IMG/VR virus record: IMGVR_UViG_3300046413_000448
Span: 1-22,331 of that record
DNA from: a virus
Reading direction: 5' to 3' (one strand)
Length of the DNA: 22,331 nucleotides
The position numbers and the translations under genes are program-made. The notes under the pieces were generated by a model. That model was given only the letters and a program-made list of their open reading frames with translations. It was not told the DNA's origin and did not search any database. Positions 2,505 to 7,512 of this stretch are shown in pieces. How positions within the stretch are numbered: position 1 is the first letter of the stretch; every line of letters starts with the position of its first letter.

Positions 2505-2664
2505 TGTCGCCCTCACATTCAAAATCCTCATAAGCTGGCCATGCGCCAGATGCAACCATTGAGCAGTAATAGTCGTCTTGCCTTACCTGCTCACCGTAAT
2601 CAGATGTGCCGACTATACCCAAAATAATAAGAAACGCCAGCCCTACAGTTATTGCTCTAATCAT
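2491..2664 (-). CDS. Small single-pass membrane or exported protein
   Basis: The 57-residue reading frame begins with ATG 2664 after TTGAGGGCAAGGCA and ends TGA at 2491, overlapping the start of the replication gene, whose ribosome binding site lies in its last codons. Residues 1-21 (MIRAITVGLAFLIILGIVGT) form one basic-then-hydrophobic segment, either a membrane anchor or a signal peptide. The rest (about residues 22-57) is acidic and aromatic with two cysteines (YYCSM and FECEG). A GGGGC-GAAA-GCCCC hairpin sits just before the ribosome binding site. The composition and the canonical initiation region make this a real gene; its function is unknown. A small inner-membrane early protein that modifies the host envelope is one possibility. 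Confidence 0.7.
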   Translation of the reverse strand: MIRAITVGLAFLIILGIVGTSDYGEQVRQDDYYCSMVASGAWPAYEDFECEGDNESN

Positions 2665-2682
2665 TGCCTTGCCCTCAAGTGA

Positions 2683-2696
2683 GGGGCTTTCGCCCC
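2683..2696 (-). promoter_or_regulatory. Intercistronic GNRA hairpin, copy A
   Basis: The minus strand reads GGGGC-GAAA-GCCCC, a perfect 5-bp stem with a GAAA tetraloop. It begins 7 bases after the stop of the 92-residue gene and is followed by TCACTTGAGGGCAA and ATG 2664. No run of T follows, so it is not an intrinsic terminator. CCCTC of the 3' side can alternatively pair with GAGGG of the ribosome binding site (5 bp, ACTT loop), so two exclusive folds are possible. Confidence 0.7.
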
Positions 2697-2703
2697 ATTG
2701 AAA

Positions 2704-2982
2704 TTAGATTTTAGCTATTAATCCTTTTTTAACATTGTCAGCATCAATCTCTCTGAAAGTTTTTATTGTATCTATCGAATGATGATGCTTATTAGGAAAC
2801 CAAGCTAGTAACTTGTAAAGAGTGTTGCGGGTTTGCTCAGCGTCAATCCTGTCTAACTCATCTTCACTTGCGCCCCTGTCAAACGCGTCAGACATTTTTT
2901 CATCTAGCCTTGCTTGCATAGCCAAAGCGCTATTGTAATCTTTAAGGTTTTGACCTCTTGGTTTAAAGTTTTGTTTGTTCAT
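2704..2982 (-). CDS. Small early protein, unknown
   Basis: The product has 92 residues, MNKQNFKPRG to KGLIAKI. ATG 2982 follows AGAGGGCAAAAAA, and a promoter lies 32-60 bases upstream (3014-3042). Residues about 15-60 are charged and helical, with a notable acidic-basic alternation, and residues 62-68 read WFPNKHHH. No membrane segment, cysteine or catalytic motif is visible. It is the first gene of a unit that continues through the hairpin into the small membrane protein and the replication-type protein. Function unknown. Confidence 0.8.
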   Translation of the reverse strand: MNKQNFKPRGQNLKDYNSALAMQARLDEKMSDAFDRGASEDELDRIDAEQTRNTLYKLLAWFPNKHHHSIDTIKTFREIDADNVKKGLIAKI

Positions 2983-3013
2983 TTTTTTGCCCTCTGGTTA
3001 AGTTGATGGGTAC

Positions 3014-3042
3014 ATTATTGACCCTGTTACGCATAATGTCAA
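3014..3042 (-). promoter_or_regulatory. Sigma70-like early promoter with TTATGCGTAA operator
   Basis: The minus strand has -35 TTGACA (3042-3037), a 17-base spacer and -10 AATAAT (3019-3014). The first ten spacer bases are TTATGCGTAA, one base off the perfect palindrome TTACGCGTAA. An A/T-rich tract precedes the -35. The sequence after the -10 (AATGTACCCATCAA) is identical to the promoter at 3503-3531, so the two are duplicates including the start-site region. Confidence 0.75.
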
Positions 3043-3065
3043 GCATTATTTCAAATTAATTTAAT

Positions 3066-3254
3066 TTATTTATTCCAGCCCACTGCCTTGCCTTGTGCTT
3101 TGGCGTTCCAGTGGTTGATGTCTGCGGCTATTTCCTTTGGTGTTGCTGTGCCGCTGATCACTGTAATGTGTTCTGGTTTGACCTTTACTGACCAATGAAG
3201 CTGGCTGGCATCTGTAAAAGTAGAATCACCGTAATGTTGCTCAATTAATTTCAT
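3066..3254 (-). CDS. Small early protein, unknown
   Basis: The product has 62 residues, MKLIEQHYGD to AVGWNK. ATG 3254 follows TTGAGGGCAAGACG and a GGGGTC-GCAA-GACCCC hairpin, the same arrangement as before the gene at 2491-2664. The first half alternates hydrophobic and polar residues (beta-like, ending HITVISGTAT) and the second half looks helical (PKEIAADINHWNAKAQG). No motif is recognised. It is the second and last gene of the unit that begins at 3471; the next promoter lies directly downstream. Confidence 0.75.
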   Translation of the reverse strand: MKLIEQHYGDSTFTDASQLHWSVKVKPEHITVISGTATPKEIAADINHWNAKAQGKAVGWNK

Positions 3255-3274
3255 CGTCTTGCCCTCAAGTGTTT

Positions 3275-3290
3275 GGGGTCTTGCGACCCC
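3275..3290 (-). promoter_or_regulatory. Intercistronic GNRA hairpin, copy B
   Basis: The minus strand reads GGGGTC-GCAA-GACCCC, a perfect 6-bp stem with a GCAA tetraloop. It begins 7 bases after the upstream stop, exactly as in copy A, and is followed by AAACACTTGAGGG, the ribosome binding site and ATG 3254. No T run follows. The same hairpin and the same 13 following bases recur on the plus strand at 3906. Confidence 0.7.
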
Positions 3291-3297
3291 ATCTCAG

Positions 3298-3471
3298 TTA
3301 AATTTCTCTTAAAGCGTCTATCGGTAATGCTAGCTCGCCTCTGGCTGTTTGCGTATGGTCATTTGGGTTGACTGCTTTGACCTGCGCGTATTCTTGGCCG
3401 TCAATGTTTCTGAATCCTAGTATTACGAATGTACCGCAAACTTGACCTTTTACTATTTGATTGATTTTCAT
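3298..3471 (-). CDS. Small beta-rich early protein, unknown
   Basis: The product has 57 residues. The frame is open up to 3531, but ATG 3471 is chosen because CGAGGGCAACAAA lies directly before it and the upstream part of the frame runs through a promoter. The sequence MKINQIVKGQ onward alternates hydrophobic and polar residues with turns at Gly and Asp (CGTFVILGFRNIDGQEYAQV), which suggests a small beta barrel of about five strands. No catalytic motif is seen. It is the first gene leftward from the bidirectional promoter region, so it is probably one of the first to be transcribed. Function unknown; a small nucleic acid-binding fold would fit, but that is a guess. Confidence 0.75.
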   Translation of the reverse strand: MKINQIVKGQVCGTFVILGFRNIDGQEYAQVKAVNPNDHTQTARGELALPIDALREI

Positions 3472-3502
3472 TTTGTTGCCCTCGTTTTGATTTGATGGGT
3501 AC

Positions 3503-3531
3503 ATTATGGCTACTGTTACGCGTAATGTCAA
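3503..3531 (-). promoter_or_regulatory. Leftward early promoter with perfect TTACGCGTAA palindrome
   Basis: The minus strand has -35 TTGACA (3531-3526), a 17-base spacer and -10 CATAAT (3508-3503). The spacer starts with TTACGCGTAA (3525-3516), a perfect 10-base palindrome in the place where a repressor would block RNA polymerase. The downstream AATGTACCCATCAA is the same as in the promoter at 3014-3042. Confidence 0.75.
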
Positions 3532-3533
3532 TG

Positions 3534-3545
3534 GTAATATATTAC
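3534..3545. promoter_or_regulatory. Palindrome GTAATATATTAC between divergent promoters
   Basis: A perfect 12-base palindrome lies in the A/T-rich stretch between the two divergent -35 boxes (3526-3531 on minus, 3566-3571 on plus). It could be an operator for one of the regulators encoded next door, or simply part of the A/T-rich UP region. The perfect symmetry supports the first reading but does not prove it. Confidence 0.4.
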
Positions 3546-3565
3546 AATTATTTTAATTTATTTGC

Positions 3566-3594
3566 TTGACTTATCCTTCATTATGCGTAATAAT
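3566..3594 (+). promoter_or_regulatory. Rightward early promoter with TTATGCGTAA operator
   Basis: TTGACT (3566-3571), a 17-base spacer and AATAAT (3589-3594) form the promoter for the plus-strand genes. TTATGCGTAA (3581-3590) lies at the -10 end of the spacer, not directly behind the -35 as in the leftward promoters. AATGTTTACATCAA after the -10 resembles the leftward AATGTACCCATCAA. Confidence 0.7.
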
Positions 3595-3624
3595 GTTTAC
3601 ATCAACTAACAAGAGGGCAACAAA

Positions 3625-3894
3625 ATGTATACATTAACTGAATTAGAAACTAACTTTTTAGAGACAATGATTGATGACTATATTTGCGTATTAGATGGTC
3701 ACTCACATAATTTAAACCTTTTCAGCGATCAACTTAATATGGAAAAAAATCAAATTAGTGGCGTAGTATCTAGCTTGGTAAAAAAACAAATCATAAGCGT
3801 TTGGCACAATCCAGACGAAAAAGCACATAACGGCACAAAAGGGCAAATGATTGAAATAGAAGCAAACGCCTTAGATTTTTGTTGCGAATTATAA
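3625..3894 (+). CDS. Probable winged-helix regulator
   Basis: The product has 89 residues, MYTLTELETN to DFCCEL. The start follows AAGAGGGCAACAAA, the same ribosome binding site as the leftward gene at 3471. Residues about 30-62 read like a winged helix-turn-helix: NLFSDQLNMEKNQISGVVSS gives helix 2, turn and recognition helix, then LVKKQIISVWHN gives a strand and wing. Such small MarR-like folds bind DNA as dimers. It is the first gene right of the divergent promoters, the classical place for a phage regulator acting on both, and the repeated TTAYGCGTAA palindromes are candidate targets. The link between protein and palindrome is inference. The C-terminus has an unusual CC pair. Confidence 0.65.
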   Translation: MYTLTELETNFLETMIDDYICVLDGHSHNLNLFSDQLNMEKNQISGVVSSLVKKQIISVWHNPDEKAHNGTKGQMIEIEANALDFCCEL

Positions 3895-3905
3895 TCAACC
3901 ATAAC

Positions 3906-3921
3906 GGGGTCGAAAGACCCC
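3906..3921 (+). promoter_or_regulatory. Intercistronic GNRA hairpin, copy C
   Basis: GGGGTC-GAAA-GACCCC forms a perfect 6-bp stem with a GAAA tetraloop, 11 bases after the stop of the regulator gene. It is followed by AAACACTTGAGGG, identical to copy B on the other strand, and then ATG 3943. No T run follows, so termination is unlikely. Confidence 0.7.
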
Positions 3922-3942
3922 AAACACTTGAGGGAGTGAGTC

Positions 3943-4341
3943 ATGCCAACAGCAAGCGAATACGACAGACTGATTAACAACAAATGGAAAGACGCTCAAC
4001 TGCCAGAGCCAACAGAGAAACAAGCAATCTCTGGCGCAAAAGCATTATGGCGCAAGGCAACGGGCAGAGCGTTCAAGGGAAAGGTCGAGATTGTAAAGCG
4101 CAAGAATCAATACACTTGGTTTAAGCGCGGCACTTACGGCCGAGATATGGTAGTTAATCCCTGCCGATACTCTCATGGCCACATAGAGCAGGGCTGGCAA
4201 GAAATAGTCCATAGCATAGCGCATATGGTACATCATGAGCTAAGACCCAGTGAGCGGCCTCACAGCGACCACCAGCTTAACCTTGAGGCAATGCTAACCA
4301 GCTACGCTCTTAGCGATAAGTTTAAAAAGTACAGAGGTTAA
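3943..4341 (+). CDS. Metallopeptidase-like early protein with HSIAH motif
   Basis: The product has 132 residues. ATG 3943 follows TTGAGGGAGTGAGTC. The N-terminal 60 residues are basic and partly helical. Residues 86-118 hold a histidine cluster: H90-SIA-H94, H97, H98, E99, then RPHSDH (H107, H110) and E115. The HxxxH spacing followed by more His and Glu recalls zinc metallopeptidase-like phage proteins of SprT type, which bind zinc through HExxH plus a third ligand. The catalytic glutamate right after the first His is replaced by Ser, so either the active site differs or the fold only binds metal. It may be a small zinc-dependent early protein acting on host or DNA-bound proteins; this is uncertain. 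It is co-transcribed with the upstream regulator and the downstream HTH gene. Confidence 0.6.
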   Translation: MPTASEYDRLINNKWKDAQLPEPTEKQAISGAKALWRKATGRAFKGKVEIVKRKNQYTWFKRGTYGRDMVVNPCRYSHGHIEQGWQEIVHSIAHMVHHELRPSERPHSDHQLNLEAMLTSYALSDKFKKYRG

Positions 4342-5935: not shown

Positions 5936-6433
5936 TTACCCCAGTGGTGAGCTTGCCGCGTCTAAGCCTTTCCAAAGGTCATCGACTTCTGCTTTGAATT
6001 TGCCTACCTGCGCCTCAAAAGATTTAATGGCATCTGCCATCGCCTTGTACTCGTTTCTAACCTCTATCCAATCTTTTTCCATCGAATTGACTTTAGCTGT
6101 AGAATTTGCCGCATCTGACAAAACTTCAGTCTGTCGCTCTTTTATACTAAGTAGTAATGTGTCAAGTTCCGCCAGCTTGCCTTGCAGATGCGACAAATCA
6201 TTGTCTTCAATCTTAGTACGGATTGTGTTTAATTCCAACTCTAGCGGTTCTATATCTGGTATTGAATCGATAGTATCGTTTAAAGTTTGCTCAATATTAT
6301 CAATTCTTGACACAAATTCACTTGCCGCCCATATTCCACCGCCAATAGTTGTTGCAAAACTAAACAATATAGCAATGTAAACACCCTTAAATTTAGTGCC
6401 GCCTACGTCTAATTCAATATCTTCAATGCCCAT
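5936..6433 (-). CDS. Membrane-anchored coiled-coil protein
   Basis: The product has 165 residues. Residues about 17-37 (GVYIAILFSFATTIGGGIWA) form one membrane span after a short N-terminal segment. Residues about 40-155 are charged with regular Leu and Ile, predicting a long coiled coil, probably oligomeric and outside the cytoplasm if the N-terminus stays inside. ATG 6433 follows AGGCGGTAATTA and shares one base with the upstream stop. The layout (N-terminal anchor, periplasmic coiled coil, just ahead of holin and endolysin) resembles an inner-membrane spanin subunit, but no outer-membrane lipoprotein partner is evident nearby. I would call it an unknown lysis-region membrane protein. Confidence 0.7.
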   Translation of the reverse strand: MGIEDIELDVGGTKFKGVYIAILFSFATTIGGGIWAASEFVSRIDNIEQTLNDTIDSIPDIEPLELELNTIRTKIEDNDLSHLQGKLAELDTLLLSIKERQTEVLSDAANSTAKVNSMEKDWIEVRNEYKAMADAIKSFEAQVGKFKAEVDDLWKGLDAASSPLG

Positions 6434-7512
6434 TAATTACCGCCTAGATTGCCGTTTTGATTGTTAAACTGTGTTGTAGGCGTTTCATTCTGAACATCTA
6501 AAACATCTTGCACTAGCTGTACTGGGTCATACAGCTTAGCGTTTATATTATAACCAGACCCCATAGAGGCCACCTGCTCTCCAGAACCATAGCTGTAAGC
6601 AGAGTACATTTCATTGATTGTAACGGGAGGGGTATCACCGTAAAAGCCGTCATAGACCTCTGTAGTGGCTTGTGTCCAGCCTATATTGTCTGCATTGTTA
6701 AAGAATACACCCTGCAAAACAGTATCAGTAGCATTGTCCCAAGTGACTGTCATTTGGTCAGTCCAAGCATCATAGGCTACCGTAGAGTTTGTTATGTTGG
6801 ATAACGTGGCTATTCCATCATAATTAATCATTGCAAGTGTTGCTGAATCTTGAGATGCCCATAGGCTCGCAGTAGCCGCTTGCGCTTTATCCTCAATAAC
6901 ATCAAGGCTCTGATTAAATGTCTGGACTGTTGATTGGTCAATCTGCACATCGTTTGCGCGTATGTAATTCTGCAACTGTATACGCTCATCATCAGTTTGA
7001 GCATTAACAGCTTCAGTGTAAATTGCTTCCGCCTTGCTAATCTCTGTAGCCGCGCCACTGAACATCTCAATAGCCGCCTCCATTTCTGCCATATTTTCCT
7101 CATAGCTATCAACCAGTAGATGCTCTGCGCTGTAGTAATTAGCGTTAGCTGTGTCTAGGATAGATTGATTGTAGTAGGCAACCTCTAGCAAGTCTATTTT
7201 ATGGCTGTCTGTCCTACCTGCAACTGGTACAACCAACCCATCAACACTATCCGCAGATTGCGGTACGCCCATTGCCATCTCTACAACGCTAGCCTGTGCA
7301 TCGCTGACCTGAGTATTGATGTAGGCCGCTGTATTAACCAGCTCTTGTATCTCTACAAACTCAACACCAGTAGGGCGCAGTGGGTTTATGTTGGGGTCAA
7401 TTAATGCCCCAAACGTGATTGATTGCGGATAGTAAACCCCTGTATCACCACTTAGTTGTGCGGAAACGCTCAGAAACAGACTTAGCATCGCCATTTTCTT
7501 TATGTTCGCCAT
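6433..7512 (-). CDS. Secreted phage protein, unknown
   Basis: The product has 359 residues. An in-frame ATG four codons upstream (7524) is part of the sequence that supplies the ribosome binding site (GGAGATACAA), so ATG 7512 is preferred. Residues 1-18 (MANIKKMAMLSLFLSVSA) are a signal peptide with probable cleavage near SAQ. The mature part is acidic and polar, rich in Asn, Thr, Ala and Tyr, with a helical middle (about residues 120-210) and a beta-like C-terminal third ending in an Asn/Gly-rich tail. No cysteines and no catalytic motif are visible. It may be exported to the periplasm late in infection or be a virion protein. The 5' end overlaps the neighbouring secreted-protein gene by 68 bases in another frame. 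Confidence 0.7.
   Translation of the reverse strand: MANIKKMAMLSLFLSVSAQLSGDTGVYYPQSITFGALIDPNINPLRPTGVEFVEIQELVNTAAYINTQVSDAQASVVEMAMGVPQSADSVDGLVVPVAGRTDSHKIDLLEVAYYNQSILDTANANYYSAEHLLVDSYEENMAEMEAAIEMFSGAATEISKAEAIYTEAVNAQTDDERIQLQNYIRANDVQIDQSTVQTFNQSLDVIEDKAQAATASLWASQDSATLAMINYDGIATLSNITNSTVAYDAWTDQMTVTWDNATDTVLQGVFFNNADNIGWTQATTEVYDGFYGDTPPVTINEMYSAYSYGSGEQVASMGSGYNINAKLYDPVQLVQDVLDVQNETPTTQFNNQNGNLGGN

Follow-up and report, generated by a model that had tools for sequence, protein, structure and literature searches.

GNRA hairpins joined to the ribosome binding site mark the end of promoter-led, exchangeable gene slots in an uncultured phage

In Escherichia coli, stable hairpins that lie at operon boundaries and lack a U tract shield the upstream segment from 3'-5' exonucleases, and operon segments that outlive their neighbours have their 3' ends at such hairpins, where the exonucleases stop (Dar and Sorek 2018, PMC5927463). 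The intercistronic hairpins of malE-malF and puf were shown to block 3'-5' decay in work that the paper cites and describes (PMC5927463). Here we describe three hairpins, A, B and C, in IMG/VR virus record IMGVR_UViG_3300046413_000448, the whole of which (22,331 bases) is referred to below as the window. Like the malE-malF and puf elements, they are stable hairpins between genes of one operon. However, the malE-malF and puf hairpins are not described as fused to a ribosome binding site (RBS), and the function of the window hairpins is a predicted one. The window derives from an uncultured, probably marine phage, which appears to be siphovirus-like from its tape measure, tail tube and neck proteins and has no near relative among cultured phages.

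Junctions of the same form are found in unrelated phages. In T4, the wac-13 (TGGGGCCGCAAGGCCCCA, 93595-93612) and e.6-e.5 (AGGGGCTTCGGCCCCT) junctions consist, as in the window, of a stop codon, a stable hairpin with a GNRA or UUCG loop that lacks a long T run, an RBS and a start codon, and the T4 hairpin stem nearly matches that of window copy B. A promoter cassette with TTACGCGTAA, described below for the window, is not known from T4, although no search was aimed at it. The lambda E-FI hairpin (ATGGCCCTTCGGGGCCAT, 7163-7180) likewise lies between genes, following the stop codon of a strongly expressed gene by 2 nucleotides (nt) and preceding the next start by 21 nt, but differs from the window hairpins by its UUCG loop, its late structural operon and its single copy. 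Dhillonvirus HK578, Vilniusvirus KLB19 and the T4-like phage Ci1 carry the GGGGC-GAAA-GCCCC hairpin with the spacing of window copy A, although with another RBS and unrelated neighbouring genes; in KLB19 the hairpin precedes ssb, while the HK578 junction is annotated as a terminator on the opposite strand. The window hairpins share with the T4 and lambda elements a perfect GC-rich stem closed by a stable tetraloop (GNRA or UUCG) on the messenger RNA (mRNA) strand, and a position between the stop codon and the next RBS and start of a co-directional gene pair. Since unrelated phages, including T4 at wac-13 and lambda at E-FI, show the same junction with either loop, the window hairpins belong, on this comparison, to a widespread kind of phage intercistronic hairpin and are by themselves a common feature. 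What is unusual, as far as the sequences tell, is how regularly they stand at the close of promoter-led slots where the genes are swapped among close relatives. This cassette of promoter, operator, gene and hairpin, together with the gene swaps, is the context that escaped the first-pass annotation, which had been made from the letters of the window alone.

That annotation had correctly placed the three GNRA hairpins between a stop codon and the next RBS and ATG, in each case on the coding strand (Table 1). Such an arrangement is not expected by chance: the window contains three perfect GC-rich GNRA hairpins with stems of at least 5 pairs, whereas dinucleotide shuffles (n = 300) contain 0.05 on average and never more than one, and no GNRA hairpin followed by GAGGG and ATG arose in these 300 shuffles. 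The RBS CTTGAGGG occurs five times in the window against 0.45 expected, three of the five being those at A, B and C. When folded in context, hairpins A and B are predicted to form with probabilities of 0.97 and 1.0, and the stem of A has a predicted energy of about -10.0 kcal/mol. Rfam gave no match to the hairpins at the gathering score and nothing credible up to an E value of 5, and a transfer RNA search found none.

Table 1. Hairpins, ribosome binding sites, genes and promoters of the slots in the window.
Feature	Position	Strand	Details
Hairpin A	2696-2683	minus	GGGGC-GAAA-GCCCC; TAA 2706-2704 ends 7 nt before; CTTGAGGG 3 nt after; next ATG 2664-2662
Hairpin B	3291-3274	minus	(T)GGGGTC-GCAA-GACCCC(A); TAA 3300-3298 lies 6-7 nt before; next ATG 3254
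Hairpin C	3906-3921	plus	GGGGTC-GAAA-GACCCC; 11 nt past TAA ending at 3894; next ATG 3943
RBS CTTGAGGG behind hairpin A	2672-2679	minus	
RBS CTTGAGGG behind hairpin B	3262-3269	minus	
RBS CTTGAGGG behind hairpin C	3927-3934	plus	
Slot gene (gene 1), copy A	2704-2982	minus	92 amino acids; no family match; unrelated gene in L005
Gene 2, copy A	2491-2664	minus	57 amino acids
Slot gene, copy B	3298-3471	minus	57 amino acids
Gene 2, copy B	3066-3254	minus	62 amino acids
Slot gene, copy C	3625-3894	plus	89 amino acids; unrelated 81-amino-acid gene in L005
Gene 2, copy C	3943-4341	plus	132 amino acids; constant, 98% protein identity between window and L005
Slot gene of fourth promoter	1476-1751	minus	91 amino acids; unrelated 111-amino-acid gene in L005; terminal hexaloop hairpin GGCGCA-TTCTAG-TGCGCC at 1487-1470
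Promoter, copy A cassette	3014-3042	minus	TTGACA-17-AATAAT, 11/12 consensus; palindrome variant TTATGCGTAA at 3036-3027
Promoter, copy B cassette	3503-3531	minus	TTGACA-17-CATAAT, 11/12 consensus; perfect palindrome TTACGCGTAA at 3525-3516
Promoter, copy C cassette	3566-3594	plus	TTGACT-17-AATAAT, 10/12 consensus; palindrome variant TTATGCGTAA at 3581-3590
Fourth promoter (P1)	1788-1815	minus	TTGACA-16-TATAAT, 12/12 consensus; TTACACCTAA at 1809-1800

Related sites allow the pairing itself to be assessed. A scan for the hairpin-RBS pattern retrieved contigs L004 and L005, which represent one close relative, and a second scan added sites in L040/L041, L042 and L043 as well as two in L046. Together, the related contigs contribute eight further sites with GAAA, GCAA or GTAA loops; all sites of the window phage group have a GNRA loop. 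Copy B is identical in L004/L005, and the orthologous copy C reads GGGGGC-GAAA-GCCCCC there versus GGGGTC-GAAA-GACCCC in the window, a U-A pair thus being exchanged for G-C with pairing kept. L005 carries two additional hairpins, GGGGGC-GTAA-GCCCCC and GGGGGT-GCAA-ACCCCC, both of which precede GAGGGCAAGAAAATG. Covariation was assessed over 12 sites, of which eleven belong to the window phage group and one to Klebsiella phage KLB19. Pairing holds in 97% of the cells, and both sides change in three of the six pairs, although in so small and partly paralogous a set these counts are not independent events. The covariation score of the 12 sites exceeds that of all 500 shuffles and of every slid control. 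Because the stem changes are compensatory, including the one at the orthologous copy C, and the GNRA form is kept, the RNA structure of the hairpins is under selection, as the first-pass annotation had suggested.

Across the sites, the stem begins 6-14 nt from the stop codon. None of the eleven hairpins of the group is followed by a U tract, the first 9 bases after the stem holding 0 to 3 T, which bears out the earlier remark that no T run lies behind A, B or C. Since the U tract is absent throughout, ordinary intrinsic termination is unlikely, and the hairpins of this phage group probably do not act as intrinsic terminators.

The first genes closed by these hairpins have a common layout, in which a strong promoter of sigma-70 type, a palindrome resembling TTACGCGTAA and the RBS GAGGGCAA precede one small gene. 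The palindrome or a close variant of it sits within the promoter spacer or in the adjoining bases, and is probably the operator of a regulator. Promoters were called by consensus match only; since promoter-like sites are no more numerous in the region than chance would give, the weight of these calls rests on match quality and on the shared palindrome. A GNRA hairpin is present at three of the four first-gene junctions of the window and at no other co-directional junction (Fisher p about 0.002, taking 20 other junctions; the hand-made gene list has 28 co-directional junctions in all), the fourth first-gene junction having a hexaloop hairpin at the stop codon instead. A scan for promoter, palindrome and RBS, with the hairpin left out of the pattern, returned only contigs that carry the hairpin. 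A survey of the fetched contigs based on open reading frames yielded too few gene gaps to be of use. The cassettes of L046 depart from this layout in their promoter, but their leader likewise contains the ATCAACTAA and GAGGGCAA elements, and they share the hairpin. Near-identical promoter and leader copies (CTGTTGCCTCATTCTTAGATAGTAGTAATATA...ATCAACTAA) are seen in this contig at 2920-3010 and 3510-3590, before two different small genes, and constitute a second promoter type.

The gene in a slot often differs between close relatives. Between the window and L005 the neighbouring blocks are 92-99% identical, whereas three of the four promoters (P1, A and C) lead to unrelated genes. The match breaks off no more than a few bases from the start codons (at 2979, at 3627 and also at about 1747) and, to the right of slot C, picks up at 3903, 3 bases ahead of hairpin C. 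Similarly, L040, L042 and L043 are homologous up to the start codon, contain unrelated genes inside and are homologous again from about 10 bases before the hairpin; in these contigs the slot seems to sit between a portal-like and a head-morphogenesis-like gene, as read from their open reading frames. Copy A is absent from L005, where its slot gene and hairpin have been replaced along with most of gene 2-A. A remnant of the 3' end of gene 2-A persists at 6070-6115 behind the replacement gene, which shows that hairpin A was lost together with the beginning of gene 2-A. A tie between the hairpin and a particular upstream gene was considered and rejected: homologues of the copy B slot gene occur in seven other contigs (51-70% identity) without such a hairpin directly behind them. 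One side observation concerns L033, from a phage of 59% GC, where, downstream of 4629, GC-rich inverted repeats come after a homologue of this gene and the leader CACACACTCAGGAGACGAGAC is repeated ahead of each start codon. The slot gene of copy C, by eye, resembles a small winged-helix DNA-binding protein, but no family match passes thresholds.

Morons are accessory phage genes with their own promoter and terminator. The window slots are like them in that a promoter-led small gene, differing at one place between close relatives, lies among conserved genes and is closed by a hairpin; the sigma-70 promoter is here a consensus match only. They differ from morons in that a U tract is missing from the closing hairpin, which is linked to the RBS of the next gene, and in that the slots share one operator-like palindrome. 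From the sequence, the layout would work like that of a moron, while membership in the class fails for want of a factor-independent terminator of the slot's own.

The choice of loop at such junctions was surveyed more widely. In a loop-blind scan, which allowed eight free bases between GGGG and CCCC, the perfect hairpins before GAGGGCAA and ATG had mostly UUCG or GNRA loops; this tally also includes some matches from a wider scan of genome contigs. These latter matches, L003 and most of the loop-blind matches are largely chance or terminators and were used for loop statistics only. In ten cultured phage genomes, junctions with stop codon, hairpin, RBS and start show 21 GNRA loops versus none for the reverse complement of GNRA, and 13 UNCG loops versus one for its reverse complement; in a stricter count, the T tract is missing from 15 of 25 GNRA or UNCG cases. 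The interchangeability of UUCG and GNRA argues for mechanical stability over loop recognition. Two phages deserve a separate mention. In HK578 (L047, 597-675), a GNRA hairpin and RBS are followed by an ATG that borders a true terminator, and a short frame running across the terminator is unannotated. KLB19 (L048; genome L185-L187) has at least four such junctions, three of which form a family of their own with the stem GCCGGA and GCAA or GTAA loops.

How might these hairpins act? The reading we prefer, at about even confidence, takes each of them as a boundary element in the RNA between two genes, placed at the end of a slot whose first gene can be exchanged. Once the mRNA is made, exonucleases that start at cuts farther downstream and move 3'-5' would be stopped by the GC-rich tetraloop hairpin, so that the message of the slot gene would outlive the rest of the mRNA; this block to decay would allow the slot gene a higher expression than the genes that follow. 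The hairpin would also keep the start site of the next gene from pairing with whichever gene sits upstream, and such insulation may be a second effect, according to the folding predictions. Of the options put forward in the first-pass annotation, a processing or stability element thus remains the best, as an inference, while a general RNA switch is not supported and a protein target specific for GNRA is less likely.

Several observations weigh against the boundary reading. In L005, operator promoters at 6415 and 5359 drive slot genes without a hairpin, which makes the hairpin usual but not obligatory, and in L040 it comes after a second small gene. Junctions of the same shape elsewhere sometimes carry a T tract and are true terminators (L044, L081 and some of the cultured-phage cases). 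The sites of the window phage group were all drawn from few contigs. The insulation seen in silico is small, with a mean start-site accessibility of 0.56 with the hairpin, 0.53 when it is deleted and 0.45 with a random linker. Finally, the sequences show directly how the junctions are built, that their pairing is selected, that no U tract follows and that unrelated genes replace one another between start codon and hairpin, but decay protection and insulation are both effects that we infer.

Other explanations have to be set against this one. It is conceivable, albeit unlikely, that the hairpins are former or weak terminators of autonomous accessory genes, causing a partial stop behind the slot gene now or in an ancestor. 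The moron-like order of promoter, gene and hairpin would fit, the stem with G first and C last resembles that of terminators, and related shapes with T tracts exist in other phages. However, the scarcity of T behind all eleven hairpins speaks against it, and a terminator scan of the coding strand gives no such site at any of A, B and C; on the other strand, C has a weak score, but that site would face the wrong gene. We find it hard to believe that the hairpin-RBS stretch is kept as a short homology for gene exchange by recombination, even though, in two independent slots, the breaks coincide precisely with the start codon and the hairpin. As long gene 2 homology directly adjoins the hairpin, recombination can do without the latter, and the compensatory changes and the preference for GNRA or UUCG are left unexplained by homology alone.

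The remaining alternatives assign the hairpin a regulatory role. The alternative fold between CCCTC and GAGGG on which the first-pass annotation based its switch does exist in copy A, but copies B and C lack the 5-bp form. The switch may operate in the window phage group but is not supported as a general feature, since the strong blocking fold is confined to copy A, whose own hairpin is predicted to form almost always, and since many phages of the same architecture have an RBS unable to pair with the 3' arm of the hairpin. A variant coupled to translation, in which the ribosome ending gene 1 covers the 5' arm and leaves the CCCC arm free to pair with GAGGG and thereby conceal the next start, seems quite improbable to us. 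Its appeal is that the stop codons lie close to the stem and that, in 9 of 11 sites, start-site accessibility is predicted to drop from about 0.6 to about 0.03-0.34 once the 5' arm is forced open. This effect, though, is the trivial result of placing a C-rich arm next to a G-rich RBS; it is not seen in L043 or L005E, and the mechanism is impossible in phages with the same hairpin but AGGA or GAGGA sites. A second small hairpin showing GAGGG in its loop (CTTG-AGGG-CAAG) is found in the window copies; it was discarded as a candidate, being unable to form in L005D/E, L040, L042 and L043. There is similarly little to recommend a binding site for a single RNA-binding protein, such as a phage regulator or, in the manner of N with boxB, an antitermination factor. 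Lambdoid N peptides do bind GNRA-like folds, and several near-identical hairpins are present on both divergent operons. Yet the boxA of a lambda nut site was not found upstream of the hairpins, the best candidates having 2-4 mismatches and being scattered rather than at a fixed place; moreover, the second loop base varies between A, C and T, the hairpins adjoin unrelated genes, and UUCG replaces GNRA at equivalent junctions in other phages.

Taken one step further, the boundary reading leads to a more speculative proposal, which we regard as possible but rather doubtful: a standardised plug-in system, made of copies of one operator-controlled promoter and leader, an exchangeable gene and a hairpin that makes the next gene independent of the insert. 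If this were true, new genes could be swapped in without retuning the operon. The position at the slot end and the shared palindrome provide a rule for finding small accessory genes in uncultured phages, among them possible host-takeover or anti-defence genes, and the hairpin junction would represent a natural boundary part for translation and mRNA.

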